Shown: in pieces, positions 43,466 through 56,033 of the stretch
How positions within the stretch are numbered: position 1 is the stretch's first letter
How the letters are laid out: each line of letters opens with the position of its first letter
DNA from: Luteolibacter flavescens
GTDB lineage: Bacteria > Verrucomicrobiota > Verrucomicrobiia > Verrucomicrobiales > Akkermansiaceae
Reading direction: 5' to 3'
DNA: 64,000 bases
NCBI RefSeq assembly: GCF_025950085.1
Contig: NZ_JAPDDS010000009.1
Coordinates: 1 to 64,000, forward strand
Made by a program: the position numbers and the translations under genes
Notes under the pieces: model-generated
The model's input: only the letters and a program-made list of their open reading frames with translations
What the model was told of the DNA's origin: nothing
The model's database searches: none

Positions 43466-46204
43466 CTAGGGCTGACCCGAGAAGCGAAACCTCACGAATC
43501 TCTTCGCTTTTCCCGCCATCCCTTCATCCGTGACGCGGTAGTGATACCGCCCGACGAGGTCCCCGGTGAACTCAGGTTCATCGGGGATTTCGTGCCATTG
43601 CTCCAAGTCCTCGCTCGCCTCGGCCACGACGGCGATGCCGCTGCCGTCCAGTGCGAGCGCGGTGGAGAAAGTCCAGCCATCCGGTGCGGAAGCCGCTACG
43701 GGAATGGTGAAGACTCCCGGTGTCGCCACCACCGGCGAGGTGCCTTGGAGCGCTTCCTCAAGGTTTGTCAGGCCGTCGTCATCCGGGTCCGCATTCGCAC
43801 CGGCCGAGGCACCTGTTAGATCGTGTGAAGCGAGCCATTCACCAAAGGTTCCTCCCGGGATCGGTGCGCTGAAATCGATCTGGAAGACCTCGCCCGCCGA
43901 GTTCGATACGATCACACGCGTCGGACCGTCGTGTTCCACTTCCTGCGTGACGAAAAGGCCGAGCCATGCGGCGGGATAGCTGATTTCCATCAGCGGTTCC
44001 GGGTGGAATTGCCAACGGTTACCGAGATTTTCATGCCACAGGAGATGGGATGGCACCGGCGAAATGCCCCAAACCGCTTCTTCTGCAATTTGCCGAAGCG
44101 TCAGGAAATCAAGGTCGCCATCGCCATCCAGATCGATCGGGTGGCCCACTAGGCCCATGGCGAGATACTCCGCCTGGGACATTGGAGGCAGCGCATGGGT
44201 GGTCACTCCCGGCACTCCCATACGGACCGTCTCGAAAGCCGCCTGCGGTCCGGTTTCGATCCATCCGAGCTGCGCTGCTCCTGACGAGTTCCGGATCGGA
44301 CTGGCCAACGTGGATGAAAGCACCTTCCAGGACTCAATGTTTCCGGACGCGCCACGTCGGCCCCAGCCTGCCACATTGCCAAGCGGGCACGGAGCGGCCA
44401 ACACGTCCTCGTCACCGTCGCCATCCATGTCGGTGAAGACGACATCTGCCGCAGTGCCAATGTCCGTGAGAAGTGTGGCAATCGCTCCTGTATGCGGTGC
44501 CTGCGTGAAGATGCGCGATCCATCCAAGAAACGGTGCTCATCTTCACCCAGCCAAAGCGGGCGCAGGACATTAGCGGAGATCGCGAGGGTGGCTGGCGGG
44601 CCGAACTGGCGATTGCCGAGATTTTCTAACAAACGGATCGCTCCGGCAGATCCGCTCGATACCGCCAGATCCGGTAGCAGGTCGCCGTTCGCATCGCCGA
44701 TTACGCTGCGGTTGCCCGGCCACGGTGATGCCCCGGCGAATGCGTCCGTGCTCTCGGTATCCACCGCGCGGTGCTCGCGACTGCCAGCGATGTCATGGAC
44801 GAAATGGATGCGTCCGCTCTTGGCTCCGCCGAAATTGACTCGATCAGCAGAGACCATGTCCAATTTGCCATCGCGATCAAGGTCAGCGAGGTGGAAGTCG
44901 CTGAAGTCATTGAAGGGTCCTGCGATCGTCTGCCACTCCGGGGTGCCGGTCCTCAGCGAGGCAAGGGATGCCCACACGATCTTTTCCTCGGAGTCCGTGT
45001 TCACCCCGGGCAGGCTGCCCAGGCGGCATGCCAATCCAGGATTGCCCTCGGTGATCGTAAGGGGGATCACTTCGCCCAGCCCTCTGGCGGGCAATGTCAC
45101 ATCGGGATCCGCTGCCCAACCGCTCCCCGTGATGAAGCGGTAGCGCCGCAGCACTCCGTTCGTCTGGCTTTCGTTCTCGTCCCAGGTCGGCCACAGCCTC
45201 ACCCACAGCTCATCGCCTTCAGGCATTGGAATGGCGGTCATGGAAAGGATGTAAGTATCCTCATCAAGAGGGATCCGGTGAATCTCCTCGGGCGGATCGA
45301 AGGACACCTTACCGTCGCTTTCCGATTGCCTGTGGATCACGATGCCGGATGCGCCGATCTCCGTATGCTCTACCGTCACCAGCGCGGGAAGATCGTCGCC
45401 GGGCAGGTTTAGCCGCACCGGTTTCGAGAGTTCGATGGAGTAAAGCACGTCTTCAGCGGCGATATCCTCCCTCGCGTCGAAGGTGTCATCGCCGCGGTTT
45501 CTCAGGATCGACACCGGATCCGTATAATAGTGATACTGATAGATCAGATCGATGTCGCCATCCCCGTCGATGTCCGTGGGGAAGAGGTTGTCGACTTCCA
45601 GCGAGCCAAGATGGTTTGCCAGATTCTCACCGTCCGCCAGCACGGGCGAGACCGAGGGGTTTCCCTGCTCGTCCAGCGTGTAGAAAAACGCCTGGCGGTG
45701 CTCCTGCTCGATCCCGTCCCACTTCTCCACGATCATCCGATCAGGTTTGCCAGCGGTGCCGGGGAAAACGGTCACGTGTTCAGTGAAGAGGTCATCCAGC
45801 GGGTCAGTGGGCGTCGGCCACGCCGTTCCAGGCAGGGGTGCAGGTGCGGCGAAGTTTCCTTCGCCGAGATTGCGGGCGTAGGTCGAGCTCCAGCGGATCA
45901 GCAGGTCCGGTGCTCCGGTGCCGTGGAGATCCGCCACGTGAGGAAGACCCCAGTTGAAAACACGGGGCTTCATCTCGATGGCCACTGGCCGGACGAAACT
46001 GCCATCACCGCGGTTCTCGCACCAGACCGTGAGCTGGTTGAAGGCGCCGGAGAGCAGGAGGTCCGAGTCGCCGTCCCCATCCAGGTCCACGACCTGGCAT
46101 CCGGATAGTGAGGTGGGATGCCGCGCTACCTCGCGGACCTCGGCGGTAAGTTGGGCGGACGCGGGCAGCGCCGTCAGCGCGATCCAGGTGAGGGCGGCTT
46201 TCAT
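43466..46204 (-). CDS. Secreted FG-GAP/VCBS repeat protein, downstream paralog
   Basis: A protein of 912 residues with signal peptide MKAALTWIALTALPASAQ. At least a dozen DxDGDGDxD loops (VDLDGDGDSDLLLSG, DIDGDGDIDLIYQ, DMDGDGDEDVLAA and others) mark a beta-propeller of FG-GAP/VCBS blades that bind calcium. Near the end a thrombospondin-type loop (PDDDGLTNLEEALQGTSP) leads to a 90-residue C-terminal beta domain ending FVRFRFSGQP. It is a paralog of the upstream gene, whose stop overlaps this start as ATGA. It is probably an extracellular structural or binding protein. Confidence 0.92.
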   Translation of the reverse strand: MKAALTWIALTALPASAQLTAEVREVARHPTSLSGCQVVDLDGDGDSDLLLSGAFNQLTVWCENRGDGSFVRPVAIEMKPRVFNWGLPHVADLHGTGAPDLLIRWSSTYARNLGEGNFAAPAPLPGTAWPTPTDPLDDLFTEHVTVFPGTAGKPDRMIVEKWDGIEQEHRQAFFYTLDEQGNPSVSPVLADGENLANHLGSLEVDNLFPTDIDGDGDIDLIYQYHYYTDPVSILRNRGDDTFDAREDIAAEDVLYSIELSKPVRLNLPGDDLPALVTVEHTEIGASGIVIHRQSESDGKVSFDPPEEIHRIPLDEDTYILSMTAIPMPEGDELWVRLWPTWDENESQTNGVLRRYRFITGSGWAADPDVTLPARGLGEVIPLTITEGNPGLACRLGSLPGVNTDSEEKIVWASLASLRTGTPEWQTIAGPFNDFSDFHLADLDRDGKLDMVSADRVNFGGAKSGRIHFVHDIAGSREHRAVDTESTDAFAGASPWPGNRSVIGDANGDLLPDLAVSSGSAGAIRLLENLGNRQFGPPATLAISANVLRPLWLGEDEHRFLDGSRIFTQAPHTGAIATLLTDIGTAADVVFTDMDGDGDEDVLAAPCPLGNVAGWGRRGASGNIESWKVLSSTLASPIRNSSGAAQLGWIETGPQAAFETVRMGVPGVTTHALPPMSQAEYLAMGLVGHPIDLDGDGDLDFLTLRQIAEEAVWGISPVPSHLLWHENLGNRWQFHPEPLMEISYPAAWLGLFVTQEVEHDGPTRVIVSNSAGEVFQIDFSAPIPGGTFGEWLASHDLTGASAGANADPDDDGLTNLEEALQGTSPVVATPGVFTIPVAASAPDGWTFSTALALDGSGIAVVAEASEDLEQWHEIPDEPEFTGDLVGRYHYRVTDEGMAGKAKRFVRFRFSGQP

Positions 46205-48942
46205 TCGGAGTCGTGCGAGAAGGCGATGCGTGCGAAGCGTCGGGCGGGCGGTGCCGCAAGCGCGGAATCAGGGAAGAGGTAGCGTTCTTCCGCGCCGGAT
46301 CCGCCGAGCGGAAGCGGCTCGTCCTCGTGGCGTGTCCACTCCACCAAATCGTCACTGGTCTCCAATCGTGCCCGCGCGCCCACGGCGGATGGAGCAGCGG
46401 CGAGGCTGGCGATCCAGCCGTGATTCGGCCCGCTGCGCAGCATCTGCATGGGCAGGGAAATCGAGCGATCCGCGATCACCGGCGAAGTGCCCGCGAGGAT
46501 CTCCACGTAGTTCGGGAAGCCATCGCCATCCGGGTCATCCGCCGCGCCGGAGGAGGCTCCGGTCACCTGTTGGGCGGCCAGCGCCGAGGCCAGCATTCCC
46601 GCGGATGGAGTCACGCGGGTCTTCAATTCCAGGACCTCGCCGATGCGGTTGATCACGAGCAGACGATCTCCCTCCGCCCTCAGCACCGGCTCCGCCGCGG
46701 ACAGCCGCAGCGTGCCTAGCTTCGTCGTGTGGTGGACCCAGGTGCCGCCCACATACTCCGTCCATAGTAGATGATGCGGGCGGATGCCGTCCGCATCGGC
46801 GGGTGCGGCTGCATCCGGGACAAATCGCAGCAGGTCGATGTCGCCATCGCCATCCAGATCCGCCGGTGCCACCAGCTTGGCAGAAGCCGGCAGGGTGATG
46901 GGAGGATGCTCCAGCGCCGCCGGCCCGGCAGCCGTGAGACGGCACGCCACCCAGGTGACCTGCGTGCCCGCTGCATCCAGCGCCGGATGGAAAAGGTCCG
47001 CAGTGCCGTCTCCCTCCAGATCGCCGGCGACCAATGATGGCACCGTCAGGCCCGCGGGCACGTCGGCGATCTTTTCCATCGAATCAAGGTGGCCACCCTC
47101 CGGATTCCATTTTCCCCACGTCAGCGCGTTGCCGAAGACCGATGGGAAAAAGATGAAGTCGCGCGCGCCATCCGCATCCAGATCGTGCCCGGCCTCCACC
47201 ACCGCCGCTCCCGTGCCGGGATAGGCCACCGGCGTGGGGTAGCTGTCCTGCGAATTCCGGGGCATGAGCCATTGTGAATGGATCATCCCGGGCTGGCTCG
47301 TCAGCAGGCGGGGGCGAGTCCCCGCCTCCAACCGCAGCGGCTGGCTGCCGGGAATCGACCACTGCATCCAGTAGTCGTAGTAGGGATCGAGCGCATTGTA
47401 GAATTCGTGGCCGTCCAGATTCTCCCACTGCATCAGGAACTGGTTTGGCCAACCGTCGAAATCCAGAAGGTCCAGCCGGCGCGCCAGATCGATATCCCCG
47501 TCGCCATCCAGATCTCCCGCGAAGAGCGGGCCCGCCGCTATTTCCGGGACGGGATAGACCCACGGCACACGCGGCGTATTCAGCGGGATATCCTTCGCGG
47601 AGAAAGGAGCATCCGCGGGAATGGCGAGGACACCGCCCGGCCAAGGCGTGCCGGAGACCCACTCGTCGCGACCGTCGCCATCCAGATGGCACCAGTTACC
47701 CTTCTCAAGCGGGCCGTAGGGGCCGGACGTCATCTTGCCAATGGTGGGCAGCTCATAGCTTTGCTCGATGACGAGTTCGCCCGGCAGATACTCCAGCAGT
47801 GCTTCCGGAGCCACGGTCGTCTGGCCCGCCGCGGTGCCCACGCTTGCATGGATGCGGCTGCCATTGGACGACTGGAAAACTTGGATCTGTCCCTTCTCCT
47901 CGATCGTTCCCCCGGCCATCGACTGGAGCAGGATCGAGCTGGAGAAGTAATCCGTGCGAAGCTGATAGATCGAGTTCACGCCGCTGCCATCCGTGGCGGT
48001 CATCCCGGCGGCCATCTCGTAGCGCGAGGCCGAGGAGCGGTAGGCTCCCGAGATCGACGTGATCTTCATCCCTCTGAAGTGAGTGCTGCCGATGCTCCAG
48101 CGCTGGTAGGTGTATGTCGCGCTCGGGTCGTAGTTTCGAAATTGCAAGCTGCTCCCCGCGACCGGGGGCGACGGGTGGTCATCGATGGACGGGAAGGCGA
48201 TGGCGAAGTTCCCGGAAAGCGTGCCATTCGAAGAGTGGATCGATGCCGTCGCGTAGGGCTTGCTCGTCGTGAAACGGTTCACGCCCCATTCGCCATTTGC
48301 CTGCGAGTGCAGCGCATACGTGCCCGTGGCGATGGCCCCGGAGCCGAGCCGCGCGCCTTCGAGATACACCACCAGGTCCAGCCTGCCATCCTTGCTGAAG
48401 TTCTCGAGGATGCAGCACTCCGGCGAGAAGCCGGGGGAATTCAGCGGGCCTTCTTCCGTCTGGATCACCGTCGCTCCGGTGCTGGTAAAGATCTTCCACA
48501 CGCCGGTATCAAGCGCGCGTCCCAGCAGCCCCGTGCGGTCCGAGGCGCACAGTTCGTGACCCGCTGTTGTGGCATTTGCCACGGGCGCGTCGAATTTCCG
48601 GAAGCGGTTCTTCAGCACCCAGCCCGGATAGTGCACGTCCGGCAGGCCGTCGCCGTCGAGGTCCGCGACCATCGGGCGGGTATTCTTCACCGCCAGCGTG
48701 CCGGTATTGATCGCCCGCAGCGTGCCGACCGGGCCATTCGGGCTGGACTCGATCCAGCCGAGGAAATCGTTCTTCCGTCCCGTGATCAGCAGGTCGCGGT
48801 CGCCATCGCCATCCAGATCTGCCTCGACGATTTGCCCGATGCCGTCCGGCCTTCGGGAGACGAGTTCCGAAGACACCACTTCCAGTGCCGCCGTGGCCGG
48901 GAGGGTGGGGAGGAGCAGGCAGCAGAGGAGGGTCCGGCGCAC
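46201..48942 (-). CDS. Secreted FG-GAP/VCBS repeat protein, upstream paralog
   Basis: About 913 residues if the GTG at 48942 is used. That start has AGGGA upstream and gives the signal peptide VRRTLLCCLLLPTLPATAA (initiated as Met). A reading from ATG 49230 would add 96 residues of non-secretory sequence and overlap the upstream lipoprotein gene. FG-GAP loops (ADLDGDGDRDLLITG, GDLDGDGDIDLARRL and others), a PDGDGFPNYVEILAGTSP loop and a C-terminal beta domain mirror the downstream paralog in order and length. The pair is translationally coupled through ATGA at 46201-46204. Confidence 0.9.
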   Translation of the reverse strand: MRRTLLCCLLLPTLPATAALEVVSSELVSRRPDGIGQIVEADLDGDGDRDLLITGRKNDFLGWIESSPNGPVGTLRAINTGTLAVKNTRPMVADLDGDGLPDVHYPGWVLKNRFRKFDAPVANATTAGHELCASDRTGLLGRALDTGVWKIFTSTGATVIQTEEGPLNSPGFSPECCILENFSKDGRLDLVVYLEGARLGSGAIATGTYALHSQANGEWGVNRFTTSKPYATASIHSSNGTLSGNFAIAFPSIDDHPSPPVAGSSLQFRNYDPSATYTYQRWSIGSTHFRGMKITSISGAYRSSASRYEMAAGMTATDGSGVNSIYQLRTDYFSSSILLQSMAGGTIEEKGQIQVFQSSNGSRIHASVGTAAGQTTVAPEALLEYLPGELVIEQSYELPTIGKMTSGPYGPLEKGNWCHLDGDGRDEWVSGTPWPGGVLAIPADAPFSAKDIPLNTPRVPWVYPVPEIAAGPLFAGDLDGDGDIDLARRLDLLDFDGWPNQFLMQWENLDGHEFYNALDPYYDYWMQWSIPGSQPLRLEAGTRPRLLTSQPGMIHSQWLMPRNSQDSYPTPVAYPGTGAAVVEAGHDLDADGARDFIFFPSVFGNALTWGKWNPEGGHLDSMEKIADVPAGLTVPSLVAGDLEGDGTADLFHPALDAAGTQVTWVACRLTAAGPAALEHPPITLPASAKLVAPADLDGDGDIDLLRFVPDAAAPADADGIRPHHLLWTEYVGGTWVHHTTKLGTLRLSAAEPVLRAEGDRLLVINRIGEVLELKTRVTPSAGMLASALAAQQVTGASSGAADDPDGDGFPNYVEILAGTSPVIADRSISLPMQMLRSGPNHGWIASLAAAPSAVGARARLETSDDLVEWTRHEDEPLPLGGSGAEERYLFPDSALAAPPARRFARIAFSHDSE

Positions 48943-49029
48943 GCGGTCCCTGATAGGTGTAGGGGGCTGCCCTGACAAGGAGATCGATGTGAAAAACCTG
49001 TGCGTATTGCTAACATTCCGCGGTAAATG

Positions 49030-49049
49030 ATTTATCCACGTTGATAAAT
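49030..49049. promoter_or_regulatory. AT-rich dyad upstream of the FG-GAP operon
   Basis: ATTTATC (49030-49036) and GATAAAT (49043-49049) form a perfect inverted repeat with a 6-nt centre, 88 bp upstream of the GTG at 48942. It is the only AT-rich patch in this stretch. The low-GC stem fits an operator better than a terminator. The regulator is unknown. Confidence 0.4.
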
Positions 49050-49055
49050 ATTCAC

Positions 49056-49796
49056 CTATCCCTGCGCTGCCCGCCGCCGCCGGAGCTTCCTGCCCCAGTG
49101 GATCACCAGCGCCGCGATGGAGAGCAGCAGCCCGCACGCGATGAACCACACGTATGAGGGCAGGGGGATTGCCGCGCGGAAGTGCGTGGTGAAGGGCTGC
49201 TTCAGCGCCTCGCCCAGCGTGTAGTCCCACACCAGCGTCTTCCCTGCATTGTCCGTCCGCGTGGCATTGTGTTCCTTCGCGGGCTTCGGCAGGTGGATGA
49301 TGTAGGTCAGGCGGCGATCCTTCCTCTCCGTGCCACCGATGACCAGCGATGCCAGCCCCAGCGCCTCGCCCACGTGGATGCTGCGGGAGAAGTCCACATC
49401 CAGCCCGCGCACGTGCACGTCGAAGTGCCCGGCGATGTCAGCCGTGGACTCCGGCATGCTCTTCAGATCGTCGCTCTTCTTCAGCTTCCGCAGGGAAAGC
49501 ACCGAGTCCGTGGAGACATCCACGGCCACCACGGCGCGATCATCCTTCGCCGTCACGCTCACCGCATCCAGCTTCAGCGAGGGCTGCCGGGCGATCAGCG
49601 TGCGGATCTTTTCCTCCAGGCCCGCCGCGCCTCCGCCCAGCATCAGTGCGGACTCCGGCACCGTGTAGCGCAGCTCCGCGCGACCCCGGCCATCCGGCTC
49701 CACCCACACCTCCTCGCGCACGTCAAAGCACGCCGCGAGCATCGCGCACGCCGCGATCACGAGGAACCTTTGGAATATGGCGTGAAGCTTGCGCAT
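49056..49796 (-). CDS. LppM-like lipoprotein with C-terminal transmembrane helix
   Basis: A protein of 246 residues from ATG 49796. The signal has lipobox LAAC, then DVREEVWVEPDGRGRAELRYTVP, a pattern resembling the LppM/DUF3153 group of exported proteins (moderate resemblance). A beta-rich domain follows, and near residue 220 a transmembrane helix (VWFIACGLLLSIAALVIHW) ends in a strongly basic tail (GRKLRRRRAAQG). A lipid anchor at one end and a helix at the other would tether both ends. Only 30 bp separate its start from the divergent methyltransferase gene. Confidence 0.8.
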   Translation of the reverse strand: MRKLHAIFQRFLVIAACAMLAACFDVREEVWVEPDGRGRAELRYTVPESALMLGGGAAGLEEKIRTLIARQPSLKLDAVSVTAKDDRAVVAVDVSTDSVLSLRKLKKSDDLKSMPESTADIAGHFDVHVRGLDVDFSRSIHVGEALGLASLVIGGTERKDRRLTYIIHLPKPAKEHNATRTDNAGKTLVWDYTLGEALKQPFTTHFRAAIPLPSYVWFIACGLLLSIAALVIHWGRKLRRRRAAQG

Positions 49797-49826
49797 CGGA
49801 AAGACCGTCGCCACGCTCTAACCGCG

Positions 49827-50468
49827 ATGCAACGCATTGTTGAGCCGGAAATCATCGACCAACTTCCACCGGACCACCCGGACGTGAAGCGCAGCCGCGT
49901 GGACCTGAAGGTGATCAACTTCCTGATGGGCAACGAGCGCTGGATCGCGCGCCACCTCGCCAAATATCCCGCGGCCATGGCGAATGGCGTGGTCGAGATC
50001 GGTGCGGGCGAGGGCACGCTGCTCCGCCGCCTGGCCCGCCGCCACCCCGGCATCCCGCTGACCGCCTGTGACTTGGCCCCGCGCCCGGCGGGCCTGCCGG
50101 AGACCATTGTGTGGGACCAGAGGGATGTCTTCGAGAGTCTGGCCGGGATGAAGGCTGGCGTGCTCGCGGCGAATCTTTTCCTCCATCACTTCGAGTATGA
50201 GGAGCTGGAGCGCTTTCGCCCCCTGATGGAGAATTTCGAGGTCATCTGCTTGAATGAACCGTATCGCGTGGAGCGGACCGTGTGGGATGCGCAGTTCATC
50301 CTGCCTTTCGTCGGTCGCGCGACGAAGCACGACATGATGGTCAGCATCCGCGCGGGCTTCGTGCATGGCGAGCTGCCGGAGCGCCTCGGCCTCGATCCCG
50401 CGAAATGGCGCATCCGCGAGGAAACCACATGGCGCGGCGGGCTGCGCATGCTAGCTTCGCGCGCTTGA
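49827..50468 (+). CDS. Class I SAM-dependent methyltransferase of the type III PKS operon
   Basis: A protein of 213 residues from ATG 49827. The SAM motif VVEIGAGEGTLLRRLA, then LTACDLAPRP and the Leu-rich post-motif AANLFLHHFEYEELERF, match UbiE-like small-molecule methyltransferases. The C-terminus (VGRATKHDMMVSIRAGF, then [12 protein letters not shown]) is specific but not assignable by me. It is first in a three-gene set; its TGA overlaps the TTG of the next gene. It probably methylates the polyketide product (inference from context). Confidence 0.87.
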   Translation: MQRIVEPEIIDQLPPDHPDVKRSRVDLKVINFLMGNERWIARHLAKYPAAMANGVVEIGAGEGTLLRRLARRHPGIPLTACDLAPRPAGLPETIVWDQRDVFESLAGMKAGVLAANLFLHHFEYEELERFRPLMENFEVICLNEPYRVERTVWDAQFILPFVGRATKHDMMVSIRAGFVHGELPERLGLDPAKWRIREETTWRGGLRMLASRA

Positions 50469-51481
50469 GCGGCACGGTGACCATCGCGGGCGGGGGATTG
50501 GCGGGACTATCGCTGGCCGCGGGCCTGCGCCTGCACGGCATCCCCGTCACCGTCCACGAGGCCGGTCACTACCCGCGCCACCGCGTCTGCGGGGAATTCA
50601 TCTCCGGCGTGCAGTGCTCTACACTGGATGCACTGGGCATCGCCGAGGCACTCGCCGATGCCGAGTCACTGCGCAGCGTCACTTGGTGGCGTGAGGGCCG
50701 GTTGCTCCACGACGACACATTGCCCGAACCCGCCATGGGCATCTCGCGTCATCGCCTGGACCTGCGGCTGAAGGAAAGGGTGACGGGTCTAACAGGTGAG
50801 GTCATCGAACGCTCGCGCCACCCGCGCGAGGCTGCCGAGGGCCACGTCTGTGCCGCAGGCCGCGTGCCGCAGCGCGGCCCCTGGGTGGGGCTGAAGGCTC
50901 ACTATCTCCACCTGCCGATGGCCGCCGACCTGGAGATGCATCTGGGGGCGAATGGCTACGCCGGTCTCGCCCGCGTGGAAGACGGTCGCGTGAATGTCTG
51001 CGGGCTTTTTCGCGTGGATCGCGCCACCGCTGGCACGGGCAGCGGATTGCTGGATGCCTATCTCCGCGCGGGTGGAAATGGCGCGCTCGCCGATCGCCTC
51101 AAGTCCGCGCAGGTGGACGAGCCATCCTTTTCCGCCGTGGCAGGCTTTCAGCTAGGCAGGCAGCGCAGCGCGCCCGGCCTGTGCGTGGTGGGGGATGCCG
51201 AGAGCATGATCCCGCCCTTCACGGGGAATGGCATGAGCATGGCCTTCCAGTCGGCGGAGCTCGCGCTGGACTCGCTCGTCCGCTGGAGTCGTGGCGGGCT
51301 TCCGTGGCATGACTGCGTGGCGGAGATCCGCACGCTGCAGCGCCGCCGCTTTCGCACGCGCCTCACCGCGGCACGGGCACTGCATCCGCTCTTGCTCCGT
51401 CGCGGCGGGCGGGTGGTCATCGAGTCCATCGCCGCCGCCGGGCTGCTGCCCTTCCGCCCGCTTCTTTTCCTCGTCCGCTGA
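50465..51481 (+). CDS. FAD-dependent oxidoreductase of the type III PKS operon
   Basis: About 338 residues starting at TTG 50465, which overlaps the upstream stop as TTGA and puts the FAD-binding strand [20 protein letters not shown] at the very N-terminus, as the fold requires. ATG 50429 would add 12 residues and is the alternative. Other features are [10 protein letters not shown], as in geranylgeranyl reductase-like flavoproteins, and the second FAD motif [21 protein letters not shown] reductase or hydroxylase acting on a hydrophobic substrate is likely. Its stop shares one base with the PKS start. Confidence 0.88.
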
Positions 51482-52506
51482 TGTTCCTGGAATCCATCGC
51501 CACCGCCGTCCCGCCGCACCGCTACACGCAGGCCCAGTGCCTGGATGGCCTGCGTGCCTCGCCCGCCTTCGCCGCGCTGCGCCCGCGCTCGCAGGGACTG
51601 TTGGAAAAGATCCTCGCAAATGATTCCTCCGGCATCGCCACCCGCAGCCTCTGCCTGCCGGAGATTGCGCCCGTGGTCTCGCAGGACGCACAATCGCTGA
51701 ACGAGGCCTTCGAGCGCGAGGCACCCGCACTGGCCGTCGCAGCCCTCCGCCCGGCTTTGGAAAAGGCGGGCATCTCCGCAGCGGACCTCGATGCGCTCTT
51801 CATCTGCACCTGCACCGGCTATCTCTGCCCGGGGGTGACCAGCCACGTGGCCGAGGCGCTCGGGCTACGGGATACGTCGTACTTGCAGGATCTCGTCGGC
51901 CTCGGCTGCGGTGCCGCCATTCCCATGCTGCGCTCCGCTGCGGGCTTCCTCGCCATGCATCCGGGGGCCAGGGTCGCCACCGTGGCGGTGGAGATCTGCT
52001 CCGCCGCTTTCTACGCCGATGACGATCCGGGCGTGCTCATCTCGCTCTGCCTCTTCGGCGATGGCGCTGCGGCTGCCGTATGGTCGGACGCGGCGGGGGA
52101 GGGGAAGTGGCAGGCCGGTCACTTCACCACCGTCCACCGCCCGGAGCAGCGGGAAAAGATCCGCTTCGTCAATGCGGGCGGGAAGCTCCGCAATCAACTC
52201 GACAAGGCCGTCCCCGGTCTCGCCGCCGAAGCCGTCGCTGAACTCTACGGAAAACGCACCGCCGACCCCGACCGCGTGCTCGCTCACTCCGGCGGCCGCG
52301 ATGTCATCGAGGCGCTGGAGGCCGTGCTGCCGCATCACCTGCCGGAGACGCGCGAGGTCCTTCGCGAGCATGGCAACATGAGCAGCCCCTCCGTTCTCTT
52401 CGCCCTCGAACGCGCCCTGGCCTCCGCCAATGGCGACCGCCGCTGGTGGCTCACCGCCTTCGGCGCTGGCTTCGCCGCGCACGCGTGCGAGATGTGGCGC
52501 AGCTAG
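51481..52506 (+). CDS. Type III polyketide synthase (chalcone synthase-like)
   Basis: A protein of 341 residues. It condenses malonyl-CoA units onto an acyl starter without an acyl carrier protein. The catalytic triad is intact: Cys143 in [11 protein letters not shown], His269 in VLAHSGGRD and Asn299 in [15 protein letters not shown]. The CTGYLCPG segment and the C-terminal [11 protein letters not shown] follow the family. The starter and chain length cannot be read. It is third in the methyltransferase-oxidoreductase-PKS operon, with 1-nt and 4-nt overlaps showing tight coupling. It ends tail to tail with the next gene, sharing CTAG. Confidence 0.96.
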
Positions 52507-53582
52507 CGGAAGTCTTGCAGCGCCGTGGCATCGCCCACCCAAGTGCCGAAGTAAGGCCACTCCGCGCCATCCCGCCACAGGAAAACGAAGAACGGCGCAT
52601 CATACGAAAAGAGGCGCGGGAATAGCAGCGGCTTGTCGATGGGACCGCCAAAGGGATCGTCGCTCATTGATACCTCCGCACGCACCCGCGCGCCGCGTTC
52701 GTGAAGCTCGAATTTCACCATCTGCTCGGCACGCTTGATGATGCGGGGCAGGGGCTGGCCTTTGTAATGCCGCGGCGATGCCAGATCCGCACTGAAGTCA
52801 TGCATGGAGACCAGCTTCACGTAGGGCACCCGGATCTCATCGCGCTCGTGCAGCCACGGGTCATCTTGTGCGCGGCTCTTGCCCGATGACTTGTCCCACG
52901 CTTCGCGCCAGGTCCGCAACCACTTGCTGGCGGTGGCGAAGTCCAATTCGGCCCCCGCGGGCGGGCGAAACAGGATGACCGTGTCGTTCGACTCCTTGCA
53001 AAGCATCTGCAGTGCGTGGGATTTCTCCGACGGGCGATAGGACAGCACGCGGACCGTATCGGCGAATTCCCCGCTCTTCTCGCCCTTCACGCCGAAGAAC
53101 TTCACCTTCGTCTGCGTATCACCCGCCTTGAAGTTCAGCGGCACCTTGCGCGAGCGATAGAATTCCTTCCGGAAGCTCACATCGCGATCCAGCAGGCCGA
53201 AGACCGCGAGGCTCCCGGCTCCCGGATTCACCAGCCGGAAAGGCCCGGCAGCTTCGCCGGTCATCCTTGCGGCCTCGGCATTCACCTTCGTGAGGAATTC
53301 TTCACTCGCAGTACCGGCCCACGTCTTCCACCGGCCGTCCGGCATAACCGGCTCCGCGTCCCACGTAAAGGAGTCGAGGCGCGAGATCAAGCTGTTAGAC
53401 GGCTCCACCTTCACCGGATTTCCGCTATGTGTCGCGTTCAGCTTGTCCCATGACGCTTGGAAAAGCGGTGTCCACACCACGGTCTTCGCGACTGGCAGCT
53501 TCTCCTCCGGATGCGCCACGGAGGCGATCTCCGCCGTCGCGGGGAATACTGCAGCCAGCAGTAGCAGGGGTATCGTTTTCAT
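52503..53582 (-). CDS. Exported protein of unknown function
   Basis: A protein of 359 residues with signal peptide [17 protein letters not shown]. The body is globular, with strands such as [16 protein letters not shown] near residue 35 and a C-terminus [18 protein letters not shown]. The last segment recalls the end of serpin folds only faintly, so I leave it unassigned. It overlaps the upstream gene as ATGA (53579-53582) and is the last gene of a three-gene minus-strand set with two secretin-like proteins. Confidence 0.78.
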
Positions 53583-54424
53583 CGCACGGGAAGCACGTCG
53601 GCTTTCACGAAGATCATCACCTTCCGGGTGAGGTCGGTGGCGCCCTTGTCCGACTTCGGCGAGACCACCCCGGCGAGCACGTAGCTTCCGCGCGTGACCG
53701 TCAGCGCGGTGGTCAGGCGGGCGGTGTAGAAATCAGGCATCTCGATCGTGGCGACATTCCCCAGTGCGTCCTTCCGCTCATACCAACGGCTATTGCCGGT
53801 GTGCCAGGTTAGCTCCGGTGAGATGCGGAGGTCGATCAGCTTCGAATCAAATCCCACGGTCGGCTCGGTTTCTAGAGTGGATCCAACATTTCGCGTTTCG
53901 AATGAAGTTGGCGTGGGTCCGCTTACCAGATTGGCGAGTGCGTTGATCTGCGCCGGGCTCACCGGCGTCTCCTTGTCCGGCGTGGCGATCGCGTCCGGCA
54001 CCGATGCGGGCTCCGCCTCGGTCGGGTAGATCTGCTCGCGGATCGATTCCACCAAGATCTTTTCCCCGCTACGTCCGGCGAGGACCTGGGTGTCTAGCAA
54101 CTTGGCATTGCCATCTTTCACCATCGCCTGGACTTGACTCCGCAACTCGGTCGCGTCGGCGCTTTTCGGGCGCTTCATGAAAAGCAGGTCGCTCAGCTTT
54201 TCATGGGACATCTCGATGTAATCCACCTGCACCTGGACGATCACCGGAGTGTCGCCATCGATTGCATCGGGGTCGAATGGATCCTCGGCCGTGCTGTCCT
54301 CGTCGTCAGCGGCACGATCTGTGATCTCCACTGGAGAATCGCCTTCAAAAGGCGGCGGCACCGGCTTCTCCTGCGCGGTCGCGGAGAGTGCCAGCATGAA
54401 ACAGAGCAACGAGGGGAGCTTCAT
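53579..54424 (-). CDS. Exported secretin-like (type II/III short-domain) protein
   Basis: A protein of 281 residues from ATG 54424 (signal MKLPSLLCFMLALSATA). A GTG at 54484 overlapping the upstream stop as GTGA would add 20 residues before the signal. After an acidic linker there is an N-domain-like strand (VIVQVQVDYIEMSHEKLSDL), then FETRNVGSTLETEPTVG and LIDLRISPELTWHTG and the end YVLAGVVSPKSDKG..KVMIFVKADVL. This order resembles the beta domain of secretins in miniature. It lacks enough length to form a full outer-membrane gate. The partner genes suggest a periplasmic assembly. Confidence 0.78.
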   Translation of the reverse strand: MKLPSLLCFMLALSATAQEKPVPPPFEGDSPVEITDRAADDEDSTAEDPFDPDAIDGDTPVIVQVQVDYIEMSHEKLSDLLFMKRPKSADATELRSQVQAMVKDGNAKLLDTQVLAGRSGEKILVESIREQIYPTEAEPASVPDAIATPDKETPVSPAQINALANLVSGPTPTSFETRNVGSTLETEPTVGFDSKLIDLRISPELTWHTGNSRWYERKDALGNVATIEMPDFYTARLTTALTVTRGSYVLAGVVSPKSDKGATDLTRKVMIFVKADVLPVR

Positions 54425-54480
54425 CTTCCGCCTGCTAACAGATCCATCATCCGGTGGCGAAGCATATCTCGTGATGTCAC

Positions 54481-55749
54481 TCACTCCTGCCCATGCACCC
54501 GCTTGCCCGCGGCATCCACCAGGGTCGGCGTGAGGATCACCACCGAGCGCGAGCCATTCGGGTGCGTCTGCACGTGCACACGGGCCTTCCCGTCGCGGGC
54601 GAAGGAGCTGTCGGTGACCGGTGGCCGGTCCACGAAGCTGAAAACGGACGGCCCGCCATTTTCTTCGACCGTCTTCTCCGTGAGGTTTAGGTCCATATGG
54701 TGCCCGAGACCATAGGGGGACGACCGCAGGTCGAGGACGACGCCCACATTTTCAGAGATGAATCCGCTATCCTCCGTGTCCGAGGGCATGATGAACTCGC
54801 GGATGATCTCGATCTTCGTGGGTTCGCCGGGCCGGCCGGTGGTCTCCGGGATCGCGACAACTTCCACCCCCTTCGTCTGTCCCAGCTTTCTCATCAGCTC
54901 CAGCGTCCCCGCGTCATCGAGCGCCGTCATGTCCTCCGGCAGCCCGCCGGTGCCGGGGTCGATCTTGATCATGCGCGTCTCCATCTTGTGCTGGATGTGC
55001 ATCTCGTCCGCGATGGTGTCGATCAGGCCCGTGATCGTGACCCGGTCGGCAGCACTGGTGGTCTCCATTTGCAGGGTGCTGCCGGTCAGCCTGAGCTTCG
55101 TGGTGGGATCGATCTCGATGCCGCTTTTCTCAAGGAACTCGGGAAGAAACCGCGGGTGATTCCGCAGCTTTGTCCTCGATGGATCGGCCTCGGGGCCGAA
55201 GGCCGAGAAGAGATCCGGCGGGACTTGGAAGCTCTTTGTCACCATCTTGCCCGTCTCCTCCGGTGCCGTGAAGACATACTCGCTGCCGGTGCGCTTCACC
55301 TTCAACCCCGCCAGCGCGGCGAGCAGGCGGATCGAGCTGTCGAGATTGCAGACGCCGGTCTTCGTCGTCAGCGGGCGAGTCGCATCACCCGGAACGGTGA
55401 AGGTGAGATTCAACGGAACCTCGCCCGACTCGCGGCAGACTTCTTCATAGACGGCCTGCAATTTCGCGAGCGCGGCCTTCAATGGCAGTCCGTCGATCAC
55501 CACTTCCGGAAGGTAGAATTCGCGCAGCTTCTCCGGTCGGTGCGTCGCGTGGCCATTTGGGTTCCTCGCACGATCCGATGTTTTGGATGAAAGGCGCTTT
55601 GGTGCCTCATCTTCCCGGCCTCCCGCCAGCCGCTCCGTATCACGCGAACCATTGGGCCCATCACGCTCCCATGAAAAGTGGCGCACGCCCCGCTCCAGGC
55701 AGAGCAGGCCGATGAGCAGGGATGCCACGGCAGCCACGCGTTTCTTCAT
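54481..55749 (-). CDS. Exported secretin-like protein with STN-type N-terminal domain
   Basis: A protein of 422 residues from ATG 55749 (MKKRVAAVASLLIGLLCL, signal or anchor). Residues 80-180 resemble an STN/secretin short domain (LPLKAALAKLQAVYEE..LNLTFTVPGD, LLAALAGLKVKRTGSEYVFTAP). The C-terminal half has DEMHIQHKMETRMIKI, GVVLDLRSSPYGLGHHMDLNL and RSVVILTPTLVD, again secretin-like. It starts the three-gene set. The frame continues upstream to 55950 across a run of nine Gs (plus strand 55861-55869), which I treat as non-coding. Confidence 0.78.
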   Translation of the reverse strand: MKKRVAAVASLLIGLLCLERGVRHFSWERDGPNGSRDTERLAGGREDEAPKRLSSKTSDRARNPNGHATHRPEKLREFYLPEVVIDGLPLKAALAKLQAVYEEVCRESGEVPLNLTFTVPGDATRPLTTKTGVCNLDSSIRLLAALAGLKVKRTGSEYVFTAPEETGKMVTKSFQVPPDLFSAFGPEADPSRTKLRNHPRFLPEFLEKSGIEIDPTTKLRLTGSTLQMETTSAADRVTITGLIDTIADEMHIQHKMETRMIKIDPGTGGLPEDMTALDDAGTLELMRKLGQTKGVEVVAIPETTGRPGEPTKIEIIREFIMPSDTEDSGFISENVGVVLDLRSSPYGLGHHMDLNLTEKTVEENGGPSVFSFVDRPPVTDSSFARDGKARVHVQTHPNGSRSVVILTPTLVDAAGKRVHGQE

Positions 55750-56033
55750 GATCCGCGATCCTGCGATGTCCGCCTGTCTTGGCAAGACGCGAGCGAGACA
55801 CGCTTTTTTCCAAACTGGGAACGCGGAATTCATTCCGCCCGTGCAGCCTCCAGCGTCGCTGGGGGGGGGAGAAAAGGGACCAGGATAGATAGTATGGATG
55901 GGATTCAGACAGGGAGGCCCGCCGGGCCTTTCCCCGGGAGCGCCGGTCATTAGACCGGCCCGAGTCGTCCGTGCTCCCTACCTTCTTCCACTTCAGGTTT
56001 GAAGCCTCCACCTCACCCACCGCATCCTCGTTC

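Follow-up and report, generated by a model that had tools for sequence, protein, structure and literature searches.

A methyltransferase, flavoprotein and type III polyketide synthase operon in Luteolibacter flavescens: retention in its family and a proposed alkylresorcinol-type pathway

The window, a stretch of 64,000 nucleotides from Luteolibacter flavescens, has a three-gene operon at positions 49827-52506. It encodes a methyltransferase (MT), an FAD-dependent protein (FAD) and a type III polyketide synthase (PKS). The MT-FAD-PKS architecture is known in outline from other bacteria; the PKS branch is new. The three enzymes probably form a pathway in which the PKS provides an alkylresorcinol-like phenol, the flavoprotein hydroxylates it and the MT methylates it, and the product would be a hierridin-like hydroquinone/quinone lipid. 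The probability of this reading is put at about 0.6.

The operon and its retention in related genomes

Coordinates are listed in Table 1. The open reading frame coordinates and codons agree with the initial annotation, which described three genes overlapping end to start. The annotation also noted that no CoA ligase, carrier protein or transporter is adjacent. In accordance with this, the flanking genes, both on the opposite strand, gave no convincing family match in profile searches.

Table 1. Positions of the operon, its neighbors and the related features referred to in the text
Feature	Position	Strand	Remark
Methyltransferase (MT), class I SAM-dependent, 213 aa, PRK06202-like family	49827-50468	+	ATG start, TGA at 50466-50468
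TTGA overlap: flavoprotein start codon with MT stop codon	50465-50468	+	read directly
FAD-dependent monooxygenase-fold protein, short, 338 aa; proposed ring hydroxylase	50465-51481	+	TTG start
Base common to flavoprotein TGA and PKS ATG	51481	+	one-base overlap
Type III PKS, 341 aa; deep uncharacterised clade	51481-52506	+	ATG start; catalytic Cys143-His269-Asn299
Flanking genes	49056-49814; 52503-53582	-	
Long repeat-containing neighbors	43466-46204; 46201-49230	-	
Open reading frames matching parts of Amuc_1098	53579-54484; 54481-55950	-	
MT match, G085, C35	7181-7702		
MT match, G066, C222	21004-21567		
U32 gene, L143	6643-7851		
U32 gene, L144	2-1465		
U32 gene, L145	2682-3932		
U32 gene, L146	2580-3929		
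U32 gene, L147	173-910		
U32 gene, L148	7049-8320		
U32 gene, L149	6331-7599		
U32 gene, L153	3289-4656		
U32 gene, L154	6028-7410		
U32 gene, L167	6057-7301		
Caballeronia locus L135	8001-12708		
Novosphingobium locus L238	1401-5044		

Other open reading frames in this part of the window may be mentioned. Two long neighbors have many DxDGDGDxD repeats (FG-GAP/VCBS-like by eye) and are apparently paralogues. Two adjoining open reading frames score against parts of the model for Amuc_1098, a type IV pilus outer membrane protein (78 and 51 bits; the cut-off is 750), and their products resemble a divergent or split secretin.

The family sample consists of 145 genomes, whose closest named records are Luteolibacter, Haloferula and Akkermansiaceae MAGs. 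The PKS is present in 109 genomes and the flavoprotein in 106, and all 106 also have the PKS. Neither gene was found in 36 genomes and the flavoprotein is never found alone; the three genomes with the PKS only are incomplete assemblies (58-88% complete). The co-occurrence gives a Fisher p of 6e-31, with kinship ignored. The unit is conserved well beyond chance. Both genes are absent from the searched genomes of one small-genome genus (g3), which is probably Akkermansia itself. Two genomes that lack the PKS and flavoprotein have an MT match (38% identity in G085 and 30% in G066); these are remnants or unrelated paralogues.

With phylum-wide sampling, the PKS is found throughout the class with 45-60% identity. 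The order MT-FAD-PKS on one strand is seen in 79/79 loci that hold all three genes. Thus the gene-neighborhood comparison proposed in the initial annotation shows the three genes to be conserved together. Around the triad, no further pathway gene is common across the genera of the window clade, thus the pathway seems to need just these three. In its distribution, the triad seems to resemble a housekeeping trait more than a sporadic trait of secondary metabolism.

The overlaps had been taken to mean that the products are needed in a fixed ratio. This proposal is rejected, since the FAD/PKS overlap is variable and one genus has the PKS apart from the other two genes. The two genes overlap in 22 of 80 loci, and in 64 of the 80 they overlap or are 30 bases or less apart; the one-base overlap of the window is matched by a minority of relatives. 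In genus g8 the PKS is on a different contig from MT-FAD, yet all three genes are retained. In G008, a genome of this genus, the PKS and MT-FAD are both far from the ends of their contigs (100 and 328 kb).

A deep branch of type III polyketide synthases

The PKS has Cys143, His269 and Asn299 at the positions first reported, and 69 aligned sequences show no variation at these residues. KASIII enzymes have the same Cys-His-Asn triad, so the triad alone is not sufficient to identify a type III PKS. The protein matches the FAE1_CUT1_RppA / Chal_sti_synt families and passes the Pfam gathering scores (PF08392, 54.9 bits vs 27; PF00195, 50.7 vs 27; PF02797, 28.0 vs 27). The predicted model has a pLDDT of 95.3, and the PDB matches listed for it are all type III PKSs. 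The best listed match is the alkylpyrone synthase PKS11 (Z = 46.1, rmsd 1.8 Å, 334 residues). Profiles, fold and tree reject a FabH-only reading of this protein.

The PKS tree was rooted with five Verrucomicrobiota FabH proteins. It was built without HidC, ArsB/C and SrsA, and the HidC clade was judged via a Paludisphaera stand-in and the published tree. FabH splits from the type III PKSs, the window clade among them, at 100/100. Within the type III PKSs, one side (88/93) consists of group A, which is the window clade, of group B, a further group from Verrucomicrobiota, and of a Caballeronia enzyme. The other side (97/82) has DpgA, RppA, PKS11, PKS18, the Ectocarpus PKS, plant 2-pyrone synthase, Bacillus-type and Deinococcus enzymes, together with alphaproteobacterial, Paludisphaera and a third group of Verrucomicrobiota PKSs (group C). 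When FabH is left out, group A, group B and the Caballeronia enzyme are held together at 99/99. The window PKS joins no characterised clade in the phylogeny that the initial annotation had called for. With its Verrucomicrobiota and Caballeronia relatives it falls on a branch that appears to be sister to all of the characterised type III PKSs in the sample; because of the long FabH branch, the position of the root is less secure than the grouping itself.

DpgA (3,5-dihydroxyphenylacetyl-CoA synthase) is the best NCBIfam match of the window PKS (NF042429, 131.7 bits, below the cut-off of 425), yet it branches with the other characterised enzymes. The dpgB and dpgC genes of the DpgA system are absent at the window triad.

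The initial annotation gave the product as a methylated, oxidised or reduced alkylpyrone, resorcinol or quinone-like lipid. A resorcinol or quinone-like lipid is probable. An alkylpyrone or other non-aromatic product, decorated by the MT and the flavoprotein, is unlikely: the nearest solved structure is that of an alkylpyrone synthase, and no assayed or characterised member of the window clade was found, but PKS11 is in a different clade and the aromatic-hydroxylase-type partners argue for an aromatic substrate.

The methyltransferase and the exchange of the middle enzyme

The MT is a weak match to class I SAM methyltransferases, and its Pfam matches are only to Methyltransf_12/25. It had been described as UbiE-like; there is no UbiE model among its matches listed up to E = 0.1, and membership in that family was not upheld. 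Its PRK06202-like family is found repeatedly among the compared triads, with homologues adjoining the PKS in Verrucomicrobiota, Deinococcus, Caballeronia, Alphaproteobacteria and Paludisphaera.

The flavoprotein belongs to the Pfam family FAD_binding_3 and is shorter than its relatives. Its closest profile matches, the geranylgeranyl reductase superfamily and QhpG, both fall short of the cut-off. Its predicted model (pLDDT 95.0) has flavin monooxygenases and halogenases as nearly all of its listed PDB matches. Those with Z values of 27-32 include PltA, ChlB4, indole and styrene monooxygenases, squalene epoxidase, and 3- and 4-hydroxybenzoate hydroxylases. No geranylgeranyl reductase structure is among the best 50 matches listed, an absence that excludes nothing.

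The flavoprotein had been called geranylgeranyl reductase-like. This corresponds to a match to TIGR02032 (GG-red-SF), which is the best NCBIfam match by E-value; its score of 47.3 of 158.8 bits is far below the curated cut-off, and family membership was rejected. As a reductase of this type, the flavoprotein would saturate double bonds, either in the acyl chain or in the ring, giving a methylated, reduced alkylresorcinol or pyrone. A "PRHRVCGEF" motif and the short length fit the superfamily loosely, and the fold matches include AbsH3, which has been described as an FAD-dependent reductase. The reductase function is nevertheless improbable, given the low profile score, the monooxygenases and halogenases that make up nearly all listed structural matches, and the UbiH-type hydroxylases and U32 proteins that fill the same slot elsewhere (see below). 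A role as a halogenase, with chlorination or bromination of the phenol, is very unlikely: PltA, ChlB4 and Mpy16 are among the top listed structural matches and hierridin C is chlorinated by an unknown enzyme, but aromatic hydroxylases match about equally (Z 27-31) and the exchange of the slot with UbiH-type and U32 proteins fits hydroxylation better.

A search of 72,556 plasmids with the flavoprotein gave seven records, and 7/7 matches adjoin a type III PKS gene. For five of these the annotated region was read, and a methyltransferase gene is nearby in every case; the other two (H92 and H96) were judged from PKS coordinates in the same records.

The middle gene of the unit is not the same in all lineages. 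A UbiH/MhpA-type flavin hydroxylase adjoins most group C PKSs and three of group B (L141, L151, L152). In ten distant Verrucomicrobiota genomes the flavoprotein slot is filled by a peptidase-U32 protein of about 415 residues (Table 1), next to a methyltransferase gene and a PKS, which is of group B in nine loci (L143-L149, L153, L154) and of group C in one (L167). As the U32 gene and the UbiH-type gene each occur with two PKS types, the slot seems to have been exchanged independently of the PKS.

The L145 protein passes the Peptidase_U32 cut-off (27.5 of 22.4 bits) and the other nine are its close homologues; no NCBIfam model was matched. Nine aligned members have ten common cysteine columns, nine of them invariant. 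The cysteines form two clusters, one of which is C-terminal (CX4CX2CX2C in most). UbiU and UbiV of the U32 family are O2-independent hydroxylases with 4Fe-4S clusters (PMC6747719). This suggests that the U32 protein of the triads may be an O2-independent hydroxylase of the polyketide. A literature search for U32 proteins combined with a polyketide synthase gave nothing relevant. The replacement is analogous to that of ubiquinone synthesis, where UbiU/UbiV take the place of the O2-dependent flavin hydroxylases UbiH/UbiF. However, the two ubiquinone hydroxylases are found in one pathway and often in one organism, whereas in the triads the swap is between lineages, and the triad U32 protein has its own cysteine pattern, unlike UbiU/UbiV.

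The type of middle enzyme is correlated with oxidase content. A heme-copper oxidase (COX1) is present in 2/10 U32-type genomes vs 28/33 flavin-type genomes (17/22 of the UbiH type and 11/11 of the window type), with kinship ignored. When cytochrome bd is added, an oxygen reductase is found in 5/10 U32-type vs 32/33 flavin-type genomes, with the same neglect of kinship. Most of the data behind the correlation come from MAGs that are 90-95% complete. COX1 was found in two large U32-type MAGs, whose contamination is 5 and 9%. It is missing from three flavin-type group B genomes.

At three loci (L143 in G315, L151 in G373, L152 in G268) cytochrome bd subunit I is encoded on the opposite strand, within a few kb of the triad. 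This was seen in two independent genera and could be coincidence.

Known counterparts and the proposed pathway

In Planctomycetota, 58 of 96 type III PKS genes end a methyltransferase - FAD oxidoreductase - PKS operon (Milke et al. 2024, PMC10896814). This operon has the same order as the window triad, and the MT and FAD families are the same. The tested planctomycete PKSs yield pentadecyl- and heptadecylresorcinols. When the FAD and MT of Gimesia maris were co-expressed, only one extra methyl group was found, probably on carbon, and the authors leave the role of the oxidoreductase open (PMC10896814). The hidABC genes of picocyanobacteria are likewise a three-gene unit (methyltransferase - oxidoreductase - type III PKS), and in Cyanobium this unit, with the planctomycete gene order, makes hierridins (PMC10896814, PMC8086630). 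The initial annotation knew of no assigned product for such a triad in Verrucomicrobiota. None was found in that phylum, but the same order does have a product in Cyanobium (hierridins) and in planctomycetes (alkylresorcinols). A type III PKS cluster without a product has been reported by antiSMASH in Luteolibacter soli (PMC11427321).

The relationship of these units to the window triad differs by gene. A Paludisphaera plasmid locus (L241) matches window-type models of the MT (3.8e-34) and FAD (7.7e-33), and in the flavoprotein tree the window-type and Paludisphaera FADs form one group vs the UbiH type (100/100). The window FAD is about 50 residues shorter than that of the planctomycete operon. 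The Paludisphaera PKS is only 27% identical to the window PKS and is in a separate clade among classical enzymes. Planctomycete enzymes are reported to group with HidC. As far as sampled, and as judged via Paludisphaera, the window PKS thus appears to be outside the HidC/planctomycete clade.

The srsABC genes of Streptomyces griseus, as cited in PMC6669644, encode a PKS, a methyltransferase and a hydroxylase that give methylated, hydroxylated alkylresorcinols. The gene order differs from that of the window triad, and SrsB is of the isoprenylcysteine carboxyl methyltransferase type, whereas the window MT matches models of soluble class I SAM enzymes. An arrangement that resembles srsABC is found in relatives from the same order (L163 of family f2, and probably L164): a group C PKS, an ICMT/NnrU-like membrane methyltransferase segment (type judged by eye) and then a UbiH-type hydroxylase.

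Gene structure, predicted folds, co-retention, gene order and the swap of the middle enzyme were observed directly; we infer the individual reactions and the product of the proposed pathway as follows. From its fold, its catalytic triad and the product of the same gene layout elsewhere, the PKS would condense an ordinary acyl thioester with malonyl-CoA to form a cyclised, alkylresorcinol-like phenol. The flavoprotein would act as an O2-dependent monooxygenase of the PHBH fold that adds a ring hydroxyl, as its fold and the replacement of its slot by UbiH-like or U32 proteins suggest. The MT would methylate a ring carbon or oxygen, either before or after hydroxylation. These steps would lead to a methyl(oxy) alkyl-hydroquinone, readily oxidised to the quinone and comparable to hierridin B. 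The starter, chain length and ring type could differ from those of the hierridin and planctomycete cases, because the window PKS clade has no known product and appears to lie outside their clade.

At the Caballeronia and Novosphingobium loci (Table 1), an acyl carrier protein and a beta-ketoacyl-ACP synthase are encoded beside the PKS/FAD genes, and the Caballeronia PKS is the nearest to group A. Thus an ACP-bound or specially elongated starter is possible there.

A broader proposal is that the triad is one form of a general Verrucomicrobiota pathway, widely inherited and distinct from the ubiquinone, menaquinone and futalosine routes, that leads to a membrane quinone of polyketide origin. Flavin hydroxylases would serve oxygen-respiring lineages, and the U32 hydroxylase those without heme-copper oxidase. 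The product could then be the respiratory quinone in two distant relatives with cytochrome bd (G315 and G345), where no MenD or Mqn genes were detected (in G315, none over cut-off). This proposal is quite unlikely. In the window organism a main respiratory role is unlikely, since MenD is present (265 bits with its neighbors) and MK-9 is the reported respiratory quinone of Luteolibacter, with MK-10 also in some species. The proposed hydroquinone/quinone lipid may have a membrane, redox-protective or signalling role.

The triad represents a pathway without an assigned product that is kept by most of the family and is wholly missing from one small-genome genus. The swap of flavin hydroxylases for a U32 protein within one module can be read as an experiment of nature, and it gives a pointer to what the middle enzyme does. 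The PKS belongs to a branch in which no characterised member was found.
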